Source: Bacillus bingmayongensis
Lineage (GTDB): Bacteria; Bacillota; Bacilli; Bacillales; Bacillaceae_G
Direction: 5' to 3'
NCBI RefSeq assembly: GCF_000299035.1
Contig: NZ_AKCS01000005.1
Span: 124,001 to 188,000 of the forward strand
DNA: 64,000 nucleotides
This document shows, piece after piece, positions 3,681-16,056 of this stretch (positions are counted from its first letter, which is position 1; the number at the start of each line of letters is the position of its first letter). A program made the translations under genes and the position numbers. Under the pieces are notes generated by a model. It saw only the letters and a program-made list of their open reading frames with translations. It was not told where the DNA came from and made no database searches.

Positions 3681-4526
3681 ATGAAACTAACACCAGAACA
3701 ACGGATTCAATTACATGGATTTAATAACCTCACAAAATCATTAAGTTTTAACATGTATGATATTTGCTATACAAAAACAAAAGAAGAACGAGAAGCTTAT
3801 ATAGAATACATAGATGAACAATATAATGCAGACAGACTAACCAAGATTTTGAAAAATGTCTCGGACATTATAGGAGCACATGTACTAAATATTGCTAAAC
3901 AAGACTATGTACCACAAGGGGCAAGCGTAACTATATTAGTATCAGAAGGCCCGGTGGTAGAAGTGCCAACGGAATCATTCACTGAATCTCCTGGACCTCT
4001 TCCTGATTCGGTTGTCATGCAGTTAGATAAAAGTCATATAACGGTTCATACCTATCCTGAATATCATCCAGATGAGGGAATCAGCACTTTTAGAGCAGAT
4101 ATTGATGTAGCTACATGCGGTGAAATCTCACCTCTTAAGGCATTAAATTATCTTATCCATTCATTTGATACAGATATTATGACAATCGATTACCGTGTTC
4201 GGGGATTTACAAGAGATATAACAGGTAACAAATTATTTATTGATCACGAAATAAGTTCCATCCAAAATTACATTCCAAATAACGTGAAAAATCTCTATGA
4301 TATGATTGATGTTAATGTCTATCAAGAGCATATCTTTCATACAAAATGTAAACTAAAAGAATTTGACTTAAACAATTATCTATTTGGATATACACAAGAA
4401 AAATTATCCGTAAAAGAACAAGAGGAAATTACAAAAAAATTAAAAACAGAAATGGATGAAATATTTTACGGTAAAAACATGAATCATGGATTAATTGAAG
4501 AGGATTTGGACGATAATTCTTTTTGA
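3681..4526 (+). CDS. speD: S-adenosylmethionine decarboxylase proenzyme, E. coli type
   Basis: This pyruvoyl enzyme makes decarboxylated SAM for spermidine synthesis. The 281-residue sequence follows the long E. coli SpeD class: [13 protein letters not shown] at the start, [12 protein letters not shown] with the serine at which the proenzyme self-cleaves into beta and alpha chains, [18 protein letters not shown] with the catalytic cysteine, and [10 protein letters not shown]. The start is placed at the ATG at 3681 (GGGG upstream) rather than the in-frame TTG at 3654. The usual Bacillus SpeD is the short class of about 126 residues, so this is probably a second decarboxylase. No speE is adjacent. 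A terminator follows. Confidence 0.93.
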
Positions 4527-4575
4527 AGAACTACAAATAATTCATAAGCAGATTTAGCGATTGATTAGGGAAATA

Positions 4576-4630
4576 CCAATAGAAAAATCCTTGCTAGTAC
4601 ATGAAACATAGCGAAGGCTTTTTCTATTGG
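4576..4630 (+). terminator. Terminator after speD
   Basis: CCAATAGAAAAATCCTTGCTA pairs imperfectly with TAGCGAAGGCTTTTTCTATTGG, with a T-rich 3' arm. Confidence 0.55.
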
Positions 4631-4743
4631 TTAACTTTTGAAAGAAAAGATGAATGTAAAAAATGTTTTAAAGGTATATCCATTTTTATTTACATAATTT
4701 TCGTTATTCGTAGTAAATCTTTGAAACTCTAAAATATAAACAC

Positions 4744-5181
4744 TTATTTTCCAGCATATACTTTGGGACAATCAGAACTCGTTGGTTGATAGAAACAATG
4801 TTCTTTGTATTGTCCTGCTAATGTCTGATTCCACCAAACAGGCGGACAATTTCCTGTGGGATTAAAAAACCAAAGAGAATTGGTTGCGGGATGTCCTCTC
4901 CAGTATTCCAGACATTTTCTTGCCAGCTCTTTATCAACTTCTCTTGCACGTTGATAAAAATATCCTTTTGTCACAGCTTCGAATGAATAACTTCCGCCTT
5001 GTTGTTGGTACACCATTTGTTGAATATTTGTAATTCCTTTAAAGTCTAGACAATTGCACATCACTCTGTTCACACCTACATTTCCAACATCCAGCATCCC
5101 TTGTTGTCCTTCTCCTTCTGCTTCCGCTCTCATTAGACGAGCTAACAAGTCCACATCAGTTTCTGTGTAAGCAATTCTCAT
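4744..5181 (-). CDS. cwlJ: Spore cortex-lytic cell wall hydrolase, CwlJ type
   Basis: The 145-residue protein consists of a single SleB/CwlJ hydrolase domain: DVDLLARLMRAEAEGEGQQG at the start with the conserved glutamates, GNVGVNRV, FEAVTKGYFYQRAR and a C-terminal SHCFYQP-like KEHCFYQPTSSDCP. It has no signal peptide, as in CwlJ, which is made in the mother cell and sits in the coat to degrade cortex during germination. The ATG at 5181 follows GGAGG. The usual partner gerQ is not adjacent, which fits the second, monocistronic CwlJ copy known in the B. cereus group. Confidence 0.88.
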   Translation of the reverse strand: MRIAYTETDVDLLARLMRAEAEGEGQQGMLDVGNVGVNRVMCNCLDFKGITNIQQMVYQQQGGSYSFEAVTKGYFYQRAREVDKELARKCLEYWRGHPATNSLWFFNPTGNCPPVWWNQTLAGQYKEHCFYQPTSSDCPKVYAGK

Positions 5182-6290: not shown

Positions 6291-6307
6291 GTTAAAAAAT
6301 TACATGC

Positions 6308-6585
6308 GATGAAGAGAAGAGTAAATAAAATAAATTCTTCACAGAGAGCTCCATTAGCTGAAAAGGAGCAAGAATTTTTTATTGAACCAAGCCTCTGAGC
6401 ATCACACAGGAACCTAAAAAAGGGGATGGTGTGACGGGAGCTCCCGTTATAGAGCTAAGGTATAAGCATTTTTGAAATGTCGTACCTGATAAGATTAATA
6501 TGGTGACATATTAATAAACTGGGGTGGCACCGCGATGATAAATCTCGCCCCCAAGACTTTAACGTCTTGGGGGTGGGATTTTTTT
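6308..6585 (+). promoter_or_regulatory. T-box riboswitch upstream of an MFS transporter
   Basis: T-box leaders bind uncharged tRNA and switch a terminator to an antiterminator. Stem I is closed by GATG (6308) and CATC (6400), and AGTA of the loop-E motif is at 6320. The T-box core TGGGGTGGCACCGCG is at 6519-6534. The terminator stem CCCCCAAGAC / GTCTTGGGGG lies at 6548-6573, followed by a T-run to 6585. The specifier lies in GAACCAAGC at 6384-6392. CCA (Pro, 6387) and CAA (Gln, 6388) are both possible registers. The TGGC bulge calls for a tRNA with discriminator G, which by recall fits tRNA-Gln better than tRNA-Pro. The element is certain; the amino acid is not. Confidence 0.93.
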
Positions 6586-6637: not shown

Positions 6638-7882
6638 ATGAAAAAAACATTAGAATCATGGAAATATCCAACACTTTTATTGTCTGGAATCGGCATTGCG
6701 AATCTTGGTGCATGGATCTATTTAATCGCACTGAATATTGTTATTTATAACATGGGAGGTTCACCTTTAGCGGTAGCTACATTATACGTTATTAGGCCAT
6801 TGGCTACGTTATTTACAAATGCATGGACGGGCAGCATAATAGATCGTTTAAATAAACGTAAATTAATGATTCATCTTGATATATATCGTGCATTATTCAT
6901 TGCTGTTATACCCTTACTTCCATCTATTTGGCTCATTTATGTGATAGTTTTCTTTATCAGTATGGCTAGCGCAATATATGAGCCAACAGCTATGACATAT
7001 ATGACAAAATTGATTCCATCAGAGCAAAGGCAACGCTTTAATTCACTTCGTAGTTTAATAGGGTCTGGAGCATCTCTCATTGGACCTGCAATAGCGGGGA
7101 TGCTTTTAATGACCAGCACACCAGGATTTGCTATATATATGAATGCTATCGCTGTATTTGTATCAGGATTAATTACATTACTTATGCCTAACATTGAGAA
7201 AGAAAACTTTTTTGATGCATCCAATAGTAAATTGTCTCTTACATTATTAAAAAAAGATTGGAATACTGTTTTAAACTTTAGTAGGCGATACGTATACATT
7301 GTATTAATCTACTTTTTATTTCATGGAATGATGGTATTAGTCGCCGCGATGGATTCGCTTGAATTATCTTTTTCTAAAGAAATTCTTTCATTATCAGATA
7401 GTCAATATGGATTTCTAGTAAGTATTGCTGGTATTGGCTTTATTGTCGGAGCCCTAGTAAACACCATTTTCACAAAGAAATTAGCTACTTCATTTTTAAT
7501 TGGTACAGGGTCATTATTCATCTCAGTTGGATATATGGTTTATGCTTTCTCAAATCATTTTTTTATGGCAGCTATCGGTTTCTTTATCCTATCCTTTTCT
7601 ATGGCTTTTGCAAATACAGGATTTTATACATTTTATCAAAACAATGTACCTGTAAATATGATGGGGAGAGTGGGGAGTATGTATGAATTACTTATAGCAA
7701 TCCTCTCCATTCTTATAACCATTGTTTTTGGCATTGCTACAAAATTCATTTCCATTCAAGTGATAGTGATTGCTGGTGCATTTATAATGCTATTCATAAC
7801 AATTGTTTTATGTGTATTAAATTTATTACCATCAAAGACAAAATTTTATTCGTCTCATCCATTAAGTTCTAAAGAAATTTGA
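6638..7882 (+). CDS. MFS transporter under T-box control
   Basis: The 414-residue membrane protein has about twelve hydrophobic segments and the MFS loop 2-3 signature in the form GSIIDRLNKRKLM (around residues 68-80). It resembles the MFS_3/DHA3 exporter group that includes macrolide and siderophore efflux proteins. The ATG is preceded by AGAGAGAT. It is the only gene behind the T-box, so its transcription should rise when one tRNA is uncharged. Two readings fit: an amino acid (or analogue) transporter, or an efflux pump for an inhibitor of an aminoacyl-tRNA synthetase. The substrate cannot be read from sequence. Confidence 0.85.
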   Translation: MKKTLESWKYPTLLLSGIGIANLGAWIYLIALNIVIYNMGGSPLAVATLYVIRPLATLFTNAWTGSIIDRLNKRKLMIHLDIYRALFIAVIPLLPSIWLIYVIVFFISMASAIYEPTAMTYMTKLIPSEQRQRFNSLRSLIGSGASLIGPAIAGMLLMTSTPGFAIYMNAIAVFVSGLITLLMPNIEKENFFDASNSKLSLTLLKKDWNTVLNFSRRYVYIVLIYFLFHGMMVLVAAMDSLELSFSKEILSLSDSQYGFLVSIAGIGFIVGALVNTIFTKKLATSFLIGTGSLFISVGYMVYAFSNHFFMAAIGFFILSFSMAFANTGFYTFYQNNVPVNMMGRVGSMYELLIAILSILITIVFGIATKFISIQVIVIAGAFIMLFITIVLCVLNLLPSKTKFYSSHPLSSKEI

Positions 7883-13288: not shown

Positions 13289-14184
13289 ATGAAAAAAGCA
13301 TTTTTTACTACGACCATTTGCTTCTTGATAGGAATAAGCATCGCCATTCTACAGCAAATAAATGAAAAAAAGTATACAAAAGCTAAGAATCAATCAAGTA
13401 ACGTAATAACTATTTCTCATAGAGGAGCATCCGCATATGCTCCAGAACATACAATACCAGCCTACAAATTAGGCCAACAATTAAAAGGGGATTATATAGA
13501 AATAGATCTTCAAATGACAAAAGATGGGCACTTAATTGCTATGCATGATGAAACATTAAATCGAACAACAAATGGATTAGGACTTGTTAAAGATCATACA
13601 TTAGAAGAAATAAAAAGACTTGATGCTGGTAGCTTTTTAATAAAAAATATCCTAATTTAGCAAAAGGAGAATTTAAGGACGTAAAAGTACCAACACTTGA
13701 AGAAGTTATTCAAACGTTTGGACATGATGCTCGTTATTATATCGAGACAAAATCACCAGAGGACTATCCCGGAATGGAGGAAAAACTGTTAGAAACACTT
13801 AATCGATACCAATTAAGTGATCCGACCATTGTAAAAGAAAAGGTAATTATACAGTCATTTAGTAAAGAAAGCTTAGAAAAAATTCATAGTCTAAATTCTA
13901 GTATTCCTCTGGTACAACTATTAACGTATAAAAAAGCAGCAGGACTGACAAATACAGAATTAGAAGATTATAAAAGTTACTGCATCGGTTTAGGAATGAA
14001 TTATAAAGCACTTGATGCTGAAGTTATTCAAAAGATACATAATCAAGGGTTAAAAGTTCATCCATTTACAGTGGATAAAGAGGAAGATATGGAAAAATTG
14101 ATTGGATGGGGTGTAAATGGCATGTTTACAAATTATCCGGATCGTTTACAGTATGTAATTTCAAGATTTTATAAAAAATATTAA
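13289..14184 (+). pseudogene. Glycerophosphodiester phosphodiesterase, frameshifted
   Basis: The first frame carries a membrane anchor (residues 5-22) and the GDPD start [24 protein letters not shown] and [12 protein letters not shown], with catalytic His and metal-binding Glu-Asp. It stops at 13660. The next frame resumes immediately with [17 protein letters not shown] (catalytic Glu and Lys) and VHPFTVDKEEDM, and reaches 14184. A single missing T in the T-run at 13634-13638 (AGCTTTTTAAT, expected six T) restores one protein of about 297 residues. This is either a very recent loss or a sequencing error. The intact enzyme would hydrolyse glycerophosphodiesters outside the membrane. Confidence 0.85.
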
Positions 14185-14185
14185 T

Positions 14186-14223
14186 AAAAATGCCATATTA
14201 AAATTATAATATGGCATTTTTAT
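14186..14223 (+). terminator. Terminator after GDPD
   Basis: AAAAATGCCATATTA pairs with TAATATGGCATTTTT. Confidence 0.8.
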
Positions 14224-14253
14224 TTCAGTTTTGTTCCTCAATAATGGAATAGA

Positions 14254-14283
14254 TTAACATAAATTCAAAAAATATATTATAAT
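14254..14283 (+). promoter_or_regulatory. Sigma-A promoter of the leader/esterase unit
   Basis: TTAACA at 14254-14259 and a perfect TATAAT at 14278-14283 are 18 bases apart. This places the transcript start near 14290 and gives a leader RNA of about 180 bases. Confidence 0.65.
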
Positions 14284-14334
14284 AAATAGTGGGCTAAAAC
14301 CCCTTATTCATTTCTTATAAGGAGAGTGCTTATC

Positions 14335-14364
14335 ATGATTATTAAGTTCATTCGTTTCCGTTAA
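14335..14364 (+). CDS. Leader peptide MIIKFIRFR with macrolide-arrest motif
   Basis: A nine-codon frame has AAGGAGAG upstream and ends Arg-Phe-Arg-stop. Arg/Lys-X-Arg/Lys (+X+) is the best documented macrolide-dependent ribosome arrest pattern, as RLR in the ErmD leader. With Phe8 in the P site and Arg9 in the A site, the leading edge of a stalled ribosome would reach about 14371-14374. That overlaps the 5' arm of the terminator at 14368-14375. The ATAAGG part of the leader ribosome binding site can itself pair with CCTTAT at about 14302. Confidence 0.7.
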   Translation: MIIKFIRFR

Positions 14365-14367
14365 TTT

Positions 14368-14436
14368 AAGGTACATTACATTTATACTCATTCATTTTTT
14401 TAGTGAATTTTGGGTTGTTTGGGTGTACCTTTTTTA
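14368..14436 (+). terminator. Attenuator terminator upstream of the hydrolase
   Basis: AAGGTACA (14368-14375) pairs with TGTACCTT (14424-14431), followed by T and A runs. An inner hairpin ACTCATTCA / TGAATTTTGGGT extends the structure. The 5' arm begins four bases after the leader stop codon, so a ribosome held on the last codons would block it and let transcription continue into the hydrolase gene. Confidence 0.65.
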
Positions 14437-14471
14437 AAATGACCAAATTCGAATGAAATGAGGAATGAATC

Positions 14472-15326
14472 ATGAATGAAAAGATAAATAAAATTAATGG
14501 AATTGATATATGCACAGAGAGTTTTGGAAACCCCAATCATCCAGCGATTTTACTGATTATGGGCGCAATGTGTTCAATGGTTTACTGGGATGAAGAATTC
14601 TGCCAAAGGTTAGCCGATAAAGGGTTATATGTTATTCGATACGATCATCGTGATGTTGGCCGTTCTGTTACCTACGAGCCAGGAAGTTCTCAGTATACTG
14701 TGGTAGACATGGCGGATGATGCTGTTGGAGTGCTCGATGCATACGATATTAATCAAGCACATATTGTTGGCATGTCTTTGGGAGGTATGATTTCTCAAAT
14801 TATCGCAGTAAGGCACCCTCAAAGAGTTCTAACGATGACTTTGATTGCATCAAGTATTTATGGGTCTGATGAGAACAATCGAAATTTACCTCCAATGGAT
14901 GAAAAAATTCTTGCTTATCATGCGAATAGAAGTAATTTGGATTGGACAGATAACGAATCTGTTGTGAATTATTTAGTTAGAGGATCAGCATTACTATGTG
15001 GGCTAAAGCATAAATTTGATGAACAAAGAGTTACGAACCAGGTAACAAAAGAAGTAAAACGAGCAAATAATCTACTCAGTATGTTTAATCATGCACTGCT
15101 TAAAGGTGATGATTACTATGAGGGGAAATTAAAAGAAATAAATATACCTGCGCTAGTTATTCATGGCACAGAAGATACGGTACTTCCGTATGAGCATGCT
15201 TTGGCTCTTGTTAATGAAATTCCTAATGCATCGTTACTACCACTAGAGGGAACCGGTCATGAAATTCATTTCGACGATTGGGCTAATATGATTAACGCTA
15301 TATTGGAACACACTTCAAGAGTATAA
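14472..15326 (+). CDS. Alpha/beta hydrolase resembling macrolide esterases
   Basis: The 284-residue protein is a complete cytoplasmic alpha/beta hydrolase. GAMCSMVYW supplies the oxyanion-hole region, GMSLGG the nucleophile Ser102, HGTEDTVLP Asp235, and GTGHEIH His263. YDHRDVGRS and VLDAYDINQAHIVG are typical of the RdmC/EstT-like branch, which includes serine macrolide esterases of the EstT type. Cyclising this assignment on the upstream leader would be unsafe, but the RFR leader and attenuator independently point to macrolide induction. The ATG follows GAGG. It could instead be another carboxylesterase or haloperoxidase-like enzyme. Confidence 0.75.
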   Translation: MNEKINKINGIDICTESFGNPNHPAILLIMGAMCSMVYWDEEFCQRLADKGLYVIRYDHRDVGRSVTYEPGSSQYTVVDMADDAVGVLDAYDINQAHIVGMSLGGMISQIIAVRHPQRVLTMTLIASSIYGSDENNRNLPPMDEKILAYHANRSNLDWTDNESVVNYLVRGSALLCGLKHKFDEQRVTNQVTKEVKRANNLLSMFNHALLKGDDYYEGKLKEINIPALVIHGTEDTVLPYEHALALVNEIPNASLLPLEGTGHEIHFDDWANMINAILEHTSRV

Positions 15327-15344
15327 GCATTATAAAATCAATAC

Positions 15345-15384
15345 AGACAATCTAAGAAAGTTTGCTACTTTTTTAGATTGTCTA
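15345..15384 (+). terminator. Hairpin after the hydrolase gene
   Basis: AGACAATCTAA pairs with TTAGATTGTCT. There is no T-run right after it, so termination strength is uncertain. Confidence 0.4.
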
Positions 15385-15404
15385 TTCAAAACCAACACAA
15401 AATA

Positions 15405-15439
15405 AAAAAAGAACCCAGATAATATCTGGATTCTTTTTT
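15405..15439. terminator. Bidirectional terminator
   Basis: AAAAAAAGAACCCAGAT pairs with ATCTGGATTCTTTTTT between the convergent hydrolase and DUF2306-like genes. Confidence 0.7.
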
Positions 15440-15512
15440 ACTTCACTTTACTCATCCATTTTTATTGAATAATCAATAGCGATTCTACTTTTTCAGAGAT
15501 TAATAATGCTTT

Positions 15513-15980
15513 TTACTCGTTTGTATGTTTCTTATATTTTTTTACTACATTTATTATAAGTGGGGCACCGATCAATGTAGGTAAAAACCAAAACCATAGT
15601 TTAGGAAGTAAATTTAAAATCGGTATAGAATTCCCTATGTTCACTAGAAGAGCTGTTACAGCACCTATATATGAACCTAGCATACCTCTAATGTGATGGT
15701 GAATCCAATTTTTCCAGCGTGTCTTTCTCGCAAGGTAGCCATAAATAGCAAATGAGTAAGAAAAAAGTGCGACATAAAACAAATAAGCAATCTCATTCCA
15801 ATGTAAAATAGATAAGATAACTGCAGTAATGAATACTACAACATAAGATGCGTGGTAAATTTCACCCCATTCTGTATGAGTTCCTTTTCTCTTTTTTACA
15901 GACATTGCGATCGCTCCTGAAATTAAACAAATGGTTCCAAATAAAATATGAATTATTAAAAGTATGTGAAAGATATCCAA
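15513..15980 (-). CDS. Membrane protein, DUF2306-like
   Basis: The 155-residue protein has four membrane segments. The first two helices contain HILFGTICLISGAIAM and, after a KKRKGTHTEWGEIYH loop, a second segment. This His-rich pattern is like DUF2306 and related heme-protein-like membrane families. The start is TTG at 15980 with GGAGG upstream. No partner is evident and the function is unknown. Confidence 0.6.
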   Translation of the reverse strand: MDIFHILLIIHILFGTICLISGAIAMSVKKRKGTHTEWGEIYHASYVVVFITAVILSILHWNEIAYLFYVALFSYSFAIYGYLARKTRWKNWIHHHIRGMLGSYIGAVTALLVNIGNSIPILNLLPKLWFWFLPTLIGAPLIINVVKKYKKHTNE

Positions 15981-16056
15981 TAAATTTCCTCCTTTGTCAT
16001 TTTAATATTTTTGATTTAAAATATAGCCTTGATTCGACTTAATATATTGAAATTAA

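Follow-up and report, generated by a model that had tools for sequence, protein, structure and literature searches.

The main text of the study that reported the macrolide esterases of Gram-positive bacteria (PMC12704417) does not seem to deal with what induces these enzymes in their natural hosts. An esterase gene in the window, by which we mean the whole stretch of 64,000 nucleotides of Bacillus bingmayongensis DNA that was analysed, offers a testable answer for one clade. The gene follows a promoter, a short leader open reading frame and a terminator (Table 1). A first-pass annotation had described the promoter, the leader MIIKFIRFR, a terminator four bases past the leader stop and a hydrolase with Ser102, Asp235 and His263 in place, and reading of the sequence confirmed each of these elements; the first base of the terminator 5' arm is the fourth base past the stop. 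We consider it very likely that the esterase gene is controlled by an attenuator of the tlrB (yxjB) type, with two locks, a stall of the kind caused by tylosin, a NusG-dependent pause and an inducer that is destroyed by the enzyme it induces.

Table 1. Features of the esterase locus, in positions of the window
Feature	Position	Strand	Basis or detail
Sigma-A-type promoter, TTAACA-18-TATAAT	14254..14283	+	-35 at 14254-14259, -10 at 14278-14283; sequence reading
Leader Shine-Dalgarno (SD) sequence AGGAGAG	14320..14326	+	Sequence; SD-like stretch ahead of most listed leaders
Leader ORF ATGATTATTAAGTTCATTCGTTTCCGTTAA, MIIKFIRFR*, nine codons	14335..14364	+	Sequence reading and relatives
Predicted stall, Phe8 in P site and Arg9 in A site	14356-14358 (Phe8), 14359-14361 (Arg9)	+	Analogy with the yxjB toeprint (PMC6851288)
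Translational lock, 5' arm: leader codons Phe5-Ile6-Arg7 (TTCATTCG)	14347..14354	+	Predicted pairing
Intrinsic terminator with U run	14368..14435	+	Predicted; 5' arm AAGGTACA at 14368-14375
Candidate NusG pause motif TTGTTT (TTNTTT)	14415..14420	+	Motif search
Translational lock, 3' arm CGAATGAA, immediately upstream of the esterase SD	14450..14457	+	Predicted pairing
Esterase SD (GAGGA, 14460-14464) and start codon	14460..14474	+	Predicted hairpin pairs 14464-14474 with 14334-14343
Alpha/beta-hydrolase macrolide esterase, 284 aa, Ser102/Asp235/His263	14472..15326	+	ORF, family and structure matches
Terminator-like hairpins 3' of the esterase, both strands	15405..15439	.	Simple terminator scan

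The esterase and its upstream region

The window enzyme scored 503.5 bits against the NCBIfam family NF052610 (alpha/beta fold macrolide esterase, macro_16_ester; cut-off 420). The EstT and EstX enzymes of Gram-negative bacteria belong to the same wider family, yet the window enzyme stayed below the family cut-offs of both, with 384.1 bits for EstT (NF041759; cut-off 450) and 308 bits for EstX, and also below those of the BCA, CBF and BRB subfamilies of NCBIfam. The best solved relative, matched over the full length with 448 bits, was 11tu, deposited as the macrolide esterase EstT; it has Ala at position 102, and the catalytic triad of the window enzyme is intact. The earlier assignment to the EstT type was not upheld: the enzyme is a member of the Gram-positive 16-membered-macrolide esterase family and not EstT itself. 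Gram-positive macrolide esterases (MLE) were reported from thousands of genomes by Zhou et al. (2025; PMC12704417), and MLE relatives, assayed after expression from a vector promoter, were active on 16-membered macrolides and not on 14- or 15-membered ones. With the MLE enzymes the window enzyme shares the family, the triad and the host groups (Bacillus, Paenibacillus and Brevibacillus among others; PMC12704417), and hydrolysis of 16-membered macrolides would be its expected activity. These scores, the intact triad and the activity of the relatives leave a slim chance to the alternative that, alpha/beta hydrolases being diverse, the window enzyme cleaves another ester and its link to macrolides is accidental.

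The gene upstream ends with a terminator-like hairpin of its own (14183-14224), and hence the leader-side hairpin is not merely the end of that gene. A motif count gave 11 promoter-like sites between 13500 and 16000 against 14.2 expected; as the number of sites was not above chance, the count was dropped as evidence for the promoter. A -10-like box (five or six of six bases) was, however, present 41-80 nt upstream of the leader in 31 of the 32 leader-bearing esterase loci described below, with a mean of 16.0 and a maximum of 22 in shuffled sequences. Transcription would start at about 14290, some 182 nt upstream of the esterase start, and the corresponding value for yxjB is 177 nt (PMC6851288). 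Just past this putative start, at 14291-14303, lies a GGGC...CCC stretch, and comparable GGG...CCC runs were noted by eye in several relatives; it may form an RNA-stabilising end, although the predicted fold of transcript 14288-14489 pairs these bases otherwise. A simple terminator scan of 13500-16000 did not list the long terminator at 14368-14435. At gathering scores, Rfam gave nothing at the leader, its single match in the window being a T-box leader at 6300-6555 (122 bits), upstream of a 414-residue ORF at 6638-7882. A glycerophosphodiester phosphodiesterase gene is split into two ORFs (13289-13660 and 13774-14184) and is therefore either interrupted or affected by a sequencing error.

The same leader ahead of esterase and rlmA genes

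Leaders were chosen by a pattern that requires an Arg-X-Arg end, and loci repeating a sequence already present were removed before counting. Thirty-two distinct esterase loci of Bacilli, the window and 31 others, carried a nine-residue leader close to M-I-I-x-F-I-R-x-R. Residue 8 was Leu in 31 of these leaders and Phe in the window alone; of the conserved Arg-Phe-Arg end that had been anticipated, Arg-X-Arg was thus kept throughout, and RFR proved peculiar to the window, the other 31 leaders ending in RLR. Elsewhere, residue 2 was Asn in one leader, residue 5 was Tyr in one and residue 6 was Met in two. One set of 16 esterase loci had the leader in all 16 cases; that of L016, seen by eye and also matched by the pattern, has a slightly different start. 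Named hosts of leader-bearing esterases were Paenibacillus, Brevibacillus, Ammoniphilus, Sutcliffiella and Bacillus arachidis. In the last of these, an esterase 80% identical to that of the window, with the leader MIIKFIRLR, lies at 4001-4855 of a plasmid typed as mobilizable (L048), and roughly 2 kb upstream of it is a transposase gene of the IS4 family.

The esterase tree was a quick one with SH-aLRT support only, and left out the pattern loci L113-L142 as well as L092, whose gene has one in-frame stop and was read up to that stop (214 aa); L092 was counted among the leaders. Among the tree rows at least 64% identical to the window esterase (n = 36, window counted), 31 had the leader and five lacked it (L029, L078, L111, L112 and L153), L029 keeping a similar leader start without the Arg-X-Arg end. 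With these and the 31 other distinct loci, the co-conservation of leader and hydrolase proposed for checking was borne out. Rows with the window-type leader (type A) fell into one set of 38 rows together with seven other rows; two Gram-negative estT rows inside this set sit on a long branch and their placement is unsure. No window-type leader was found upstream of the two Gram-negative estT copies L052 and L053. That all macrolide esterases carry this leader is ruled out, since type A was present in 31 of 126 distinct esterases.

In a search of 398 Bacilli genomes that tolerated two mismatches at most, the leader pattern occurred at 41 places, spread over 38 of the genomes, and the reversed pattern had no match. 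Fifteen of the places precede an esterase gene and 26 a gene for an RlmA-like 23S rRNA methyltransferase. For the ten of these 26 proteins that were scanned, the best NCBIfam match was always 23S rRNA guanine(745)-N1 methyltransferase, below its cut-off, and the 748 methyltransferases Erm(32), ChrB and MyrA ranked next, also below theirs; the Pfam family Zn_ribbon_RlmA was above its cut-off in four of four proteins scanned. The other 16 proteins were classed by eye from an N-terminal zinc ribbon and FD-x-x-K-x-GY motifs. The RlmA-like ORF is short in L127 and L169. Twenty-four rlmA leaders were compared further: L114 and L127, in which the ninth codon has no following stop, belong to the 41 places and not to these 24, and L169, where the ORF reads 95 aa, was kept among them. 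In two genomes (G025 and G261) an esterase and an rlmA gene are both present, each preceded by a leader of its own; in one more (G124) an esterase leader is accompanied by an altered rlmA leader.

Because the rlmA loci had been found with the esterase-leader pattern, similarity between the leader peptides does not count as a separate line of evidence. For the same reason the leader codons were excluded from an HMM that was built from the 24 rlmA post-leader stretches alone and run with all filters off. This HMM matched the window at 14369-14457 with E = 3.8e-6 (22.6 bits, bias-corrected by 14.8), and the next best place in the 64 kb had E = 0.76. Of the 31 other distinct esterase loci with the leader, it found 30 at E values of 0.014 or less, missing L012, and none of the loci with other leader types reached an E value below 0.08. 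We conclude from this comparison that the post-leader RNA of the window is in all appearance homologous to that of rlmA/tlrB leaders. One leader with its RNA seems to be common to esterase and rlmA/tlrB genes, and what is shared is the element and not the operon.

The yxjB gene of B. subtilis, renamed tlrB, codes for RlmA(II), and its leader peptide reads MIIQFIRYR; the authors of its analysis compared 180 leaders ahead of tlrB homologues (Yakhnin et al., 2019; PMC6851288). In the presence of tylosin, the yxjB toeprint corresponds to a ribosome that has Tyr in its P site and the final Arg in its A site (PMC6851288). Deletion of nusG nearly abolishes induction, and the NusG pause requires a T-rich sequence (PMC6851288). 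Shared between yxjB and the window are the nine-residue MII-x-F-I-R-x-R leader, the terminator followed by a U run, the T-rich pause motif, a predicted hairpin of leader codons that sequesters the SD and start, and the length of the leader region (177 versus about 182 nt). The controlled genes differ, a 23S rRNA G748 methyltransferase gene in yxjB and a macrolide esterase gene in the window, as do the leader residues Gln4 and Tyr8 of yxjB, which are Lys4 and Phe8 in the window (PMC6851288). If C54 is taken to open the Arg7 codon, the yxjB leader AUG lies at +36, and in this alignment C54, G61, G71 and G72 of yxjB correspond to C, G, G and G in the window (G71/G72 to G14370/G14371), and the leader-to-terminator spacing is therefore the same in both; the toeprint base U74 corresponds to an A. 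The mef(E)/mel attenuator of streptococci (PMC4335068) likewise combines a short leader peptide with macrolide-dependent transcription attenuation and controls other genes.

The idea of a drug-induced stall in the window leader is well supported by its homology to this experimentally worked-out system. That the leader instead senses a signal other than a macrolide, such as arginine shortage or any ribosome-slowing stress, is scarcely credible to us: it does end with two Arg codons, and classical attenuators use such codons, yet there are just two of them and no run. Moreover, no third gene type stood behind the leader at any of the 41 places, both downstream families act on 16-membered-macrolide resistance (PMC12704417, PMC6851288), and the tested homologue yxjB responds to tylosin (PMC6851288).

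Terminator, translational lock and predicted drug response

Positions 14362-14440 fold at -18.9 kcal/mol (z -3.75), and none of 200 shuffles folded as well. For the window transcript 14288-14489, the predicted fold is a nested hairpin with the terminator inside (z -2.20; 6 of 200 shuffles as good), whose helices join 14334-14343 to 14464-14474 at the esterase start and 14347-14354 to 14450-14457. In this model the 5' arm of the terminator would lie under the stalled ribosome and the leader codons would form an SD-sequestering hairpin, both as in the tlrB(yxjB)-type attenuator. Covariation was examined over the 32 esterase leaders with a named structure taken from the window itself. The lock helix was 96.5% paired and almost invariant, with both-sided changes in none of its eight pairs; both-sided changes were found in 7 of the 11 pairs of the outer terminator stem, and in the start-region helix no more than 71% of cells were paired. 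Taken as a whole, the named structure had 19 pairs with both-sided changes, a number reached by 46 of 500 shuffles and also by slid versions of the structure, which gave 20 and 21. Its covariation score, however, was higher than in all 500 shuffles and in the slid versions, and 70.8% of cells were paired as against at most 50.9% in the slid versions. RNAalifold predicted lock and terminator from the rlmA alignment alone, and neither of the two for the 32 esterase leaders (-0.6 kcal/mol). As it was uninformative on the esterase leaders, the named-structure counts, shuffled per-locus scans and the rlmA-only model were used.

In per-locus scans, all eight lock pairs (G-U allowed) could form in 28 of the 32 esterase leaders, as against a mean of 2.9 and a maximum of 8 in shuffled sequences, and in 22 of the 24 rlmA leaders (mean 0.9, maximum 4). 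A loose terminator criterion picked out 26 esterase leaders, three of which (L003, L013 and L021) have a terminator ending at a different T stretch, and all 24 rlmA leaders; in 20 shuffles the means were 5.9 and 6.1 and the maxima 11. The candidate NusG pause motif TTNTTT was present 45-85 nt past the stop codon in 30 of the 32 esterase leaders, where shuffles gave a mean of 6.0, and in 23 of the 24 rlmA leaders, where they gave 7.1.

We also considered that the stall opens the terminator only, with transcription attenuation alone controlling the gene and the bases near the esterase SD pairing by coincidence. The terminator of the window is indeed strong, and its 5' arm starts inside the expected footprint of the stalled ribosome. 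Against this reading, full lock pairing at the site directly upstream of the SD was possible in 26 of the 32 esterase leaders and in 22 of the 24 rlmA leaders, and six of the 32 esterase leaders failed the terminator criterion. In yxjB, moreover, disabling the terminator raised expression only about 2-fold (PMC6851288, its Table 1), and a translational fusion that includes the SD-sequestering hairpin of leader codons was at or below detection without tylosin (PMC6851288). Attenuation alone thus has, in our judgement, little prospect of being correct. The stalled ribosome covering the terminator arm, as envisaged in the first-pass annotation, gained support from the homology to yxjB, but the element appears to be the yxjB/tlrB tylosin attenuator placed ahead of a different gene and not a free-standing one, and a second, translational lock had been missed. 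Under control by both locks, translation would be the dominant step, as carried over from yxjB, and those esterase leaders in which no good terminator is present are consistent with termination being of minor importance.

In the mechanism that we propose, stalling, the identity of the drug, pausing and the action of both locks are transferred to the window from yxjB. Without drug, ribosomes would complete the nine-codon leader and depart, and RNA polymerase would either terminate at 14368-14435 or continue into a self-folding RNA, in which the leader codons and leader start would pair with the ribosome-binding region and start codon of the esterase. A tylosin-type 16-membered macrolide in the exit tunnel would halt the ribosome when Phe8 occupies the P site and Arg9 the A site. 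Because the halted ribosome would shield the 5' arms of both terminator and lock, transcription would go on and the esterase start would be open. A NusG-dependent pause near 14424-14426 would give the polymerase a delay sufficient for leader translation. The esterase would then cleave the drug that is its own inducer, and since the inducer would be destroyed the response should shut itself off, unlike that of rRNA methylation. Such feedback, presumed here for the window protein, would be unusual.

Arg-Leu-Arg is a stall motif in other macrolide leaders (ErmDL and the mef leader), and Leu or Phe in place of Tyr might give the esterase leaders a broader macrolide range that includes erythromycin, with induction also by drugs that are not cleaved. 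We regard this as unlikely, though as a reading to be weighed seriously: the authors of the yxjB study themselves suggest that drug specificity may shift as leaders diverge (PMC6851288), yet length, Ile3, Phe5, Ile6 and the RNA match leaders of the tylosin type, and among the 24 rlmA leaders, too, residue 8 is Leu in 9 and Phe in 5. Erythromycin neither induced yxjB at the doses tried nor gave a toeprint (PMC6851288), which makes a 16-membered drug of the tylosin type the more probable inducer. The macrolide inducer claimed earlier can accordingly be kept as a tylosin-type drug by homology to yxjB, with erythromycin an unlikely one. The natural variants with Tyr, Leu or Phe at position 8 allow the drug specificity of stalling to be compared.

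Other attenuator-like leaders of macrolide esterases

The enzyme family and the attenuator have each been published already, and what appears to be new is their combination. We did not find an esterase with a tylosin-type attenuator in print in full-text and passage searches of open-licence papers, in which the earlier statement that no leader-controlled macrolide esterase has been described also held. The words 'leader' and 'attenuat' have no occurrence in the main text of PMC12704417 or in the EstX paper PMC11214618; conversely, 'esterase' does not occur in the text of PMC6851288 or in the tlrB passages of a 2025 review (PMC12288461). In PMC12190993, 'leader peptide' and 'macrolide esterase' both occur, in unrelated passages. 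One natural sensor RNA would serve two unrelated resistance enzymes, and susceptibility tests without pre-exposure are predicted to be liable to miss the esterase. Beyond this locus, we find it plausible, if on balance slightly doubtful, that drug-sensing attenuators are exchangeable modules in Bacilli. One tylosin-sensing RNA would then control two unrelated enzymes, one shielding the ribosome and one destroying the drug; other esterase branches would have at least one and probably two attenuators of other kinds (one made of a MIIKW leader and an ACTCCG:CGGAGG lock, the other of a terminator just before the gene with a candidate leader ORF), and inducible, self-limiting drug destruction would be the rule for these enzymes.

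By pattern, the 126 distinct esterases comprised 31 of the window type (A), 31 of a terminator type (B), of which 17 came from a Paenibacillus-family sample, 22 of a MIIKW type (C) and 42 with none of these. These type labels follow the tree, with 17 changes against a shuffled mean of 68.1. The MIIKW-type leader reads MIIKW[IVM][RK]xR or close to it and lies about 77-98 nt upstream of the esterase (L036, L060, L065, L066, L070, L072-L074, L079, L081-L087 and L144-L149). All 22 of these loci contain CTCC and CGGAG elements by which the SD could be masked; this count was made without a chance control, and the arrangement looks like a separate translational attenuator. The MIIKW pattern had matches in 6 of 199 genomes, and five places were esterase loci by position; the sole place before a non-esterase gene (L174) looks like chance and was rejected. 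In type B, a TCGATTAC-like element is followed by a CACAGGC-type hairpin and a T run just before the SD, and a candidate small upstream ORF, MVCLHGNL-like, was seen by eye in some loci (L034, L035, L037-L041, L043, L045, L046, L055, L056, L077, L080, L093-L100, L102-L109 and L151).

Two further esterase loci had upstream or neighbouring features of their own. On plasmid pCXA of Exiguobacterium aurantiacum (L051), an esterase relative with 51% identity adjoins genes for an Mph(B)-family macrolide phosphotransferase and a TetR-family regulator, near a Tn3-family transposase gene, and is probably regulated by another route. In L032, an esterase locus outside the clade of the window, a candidate leader MCYFKFRLR (1177-1206) lies directly 5' of a terminator-like hairpin; it again has an Arg-Leu-Arg end, and its RNA is different.
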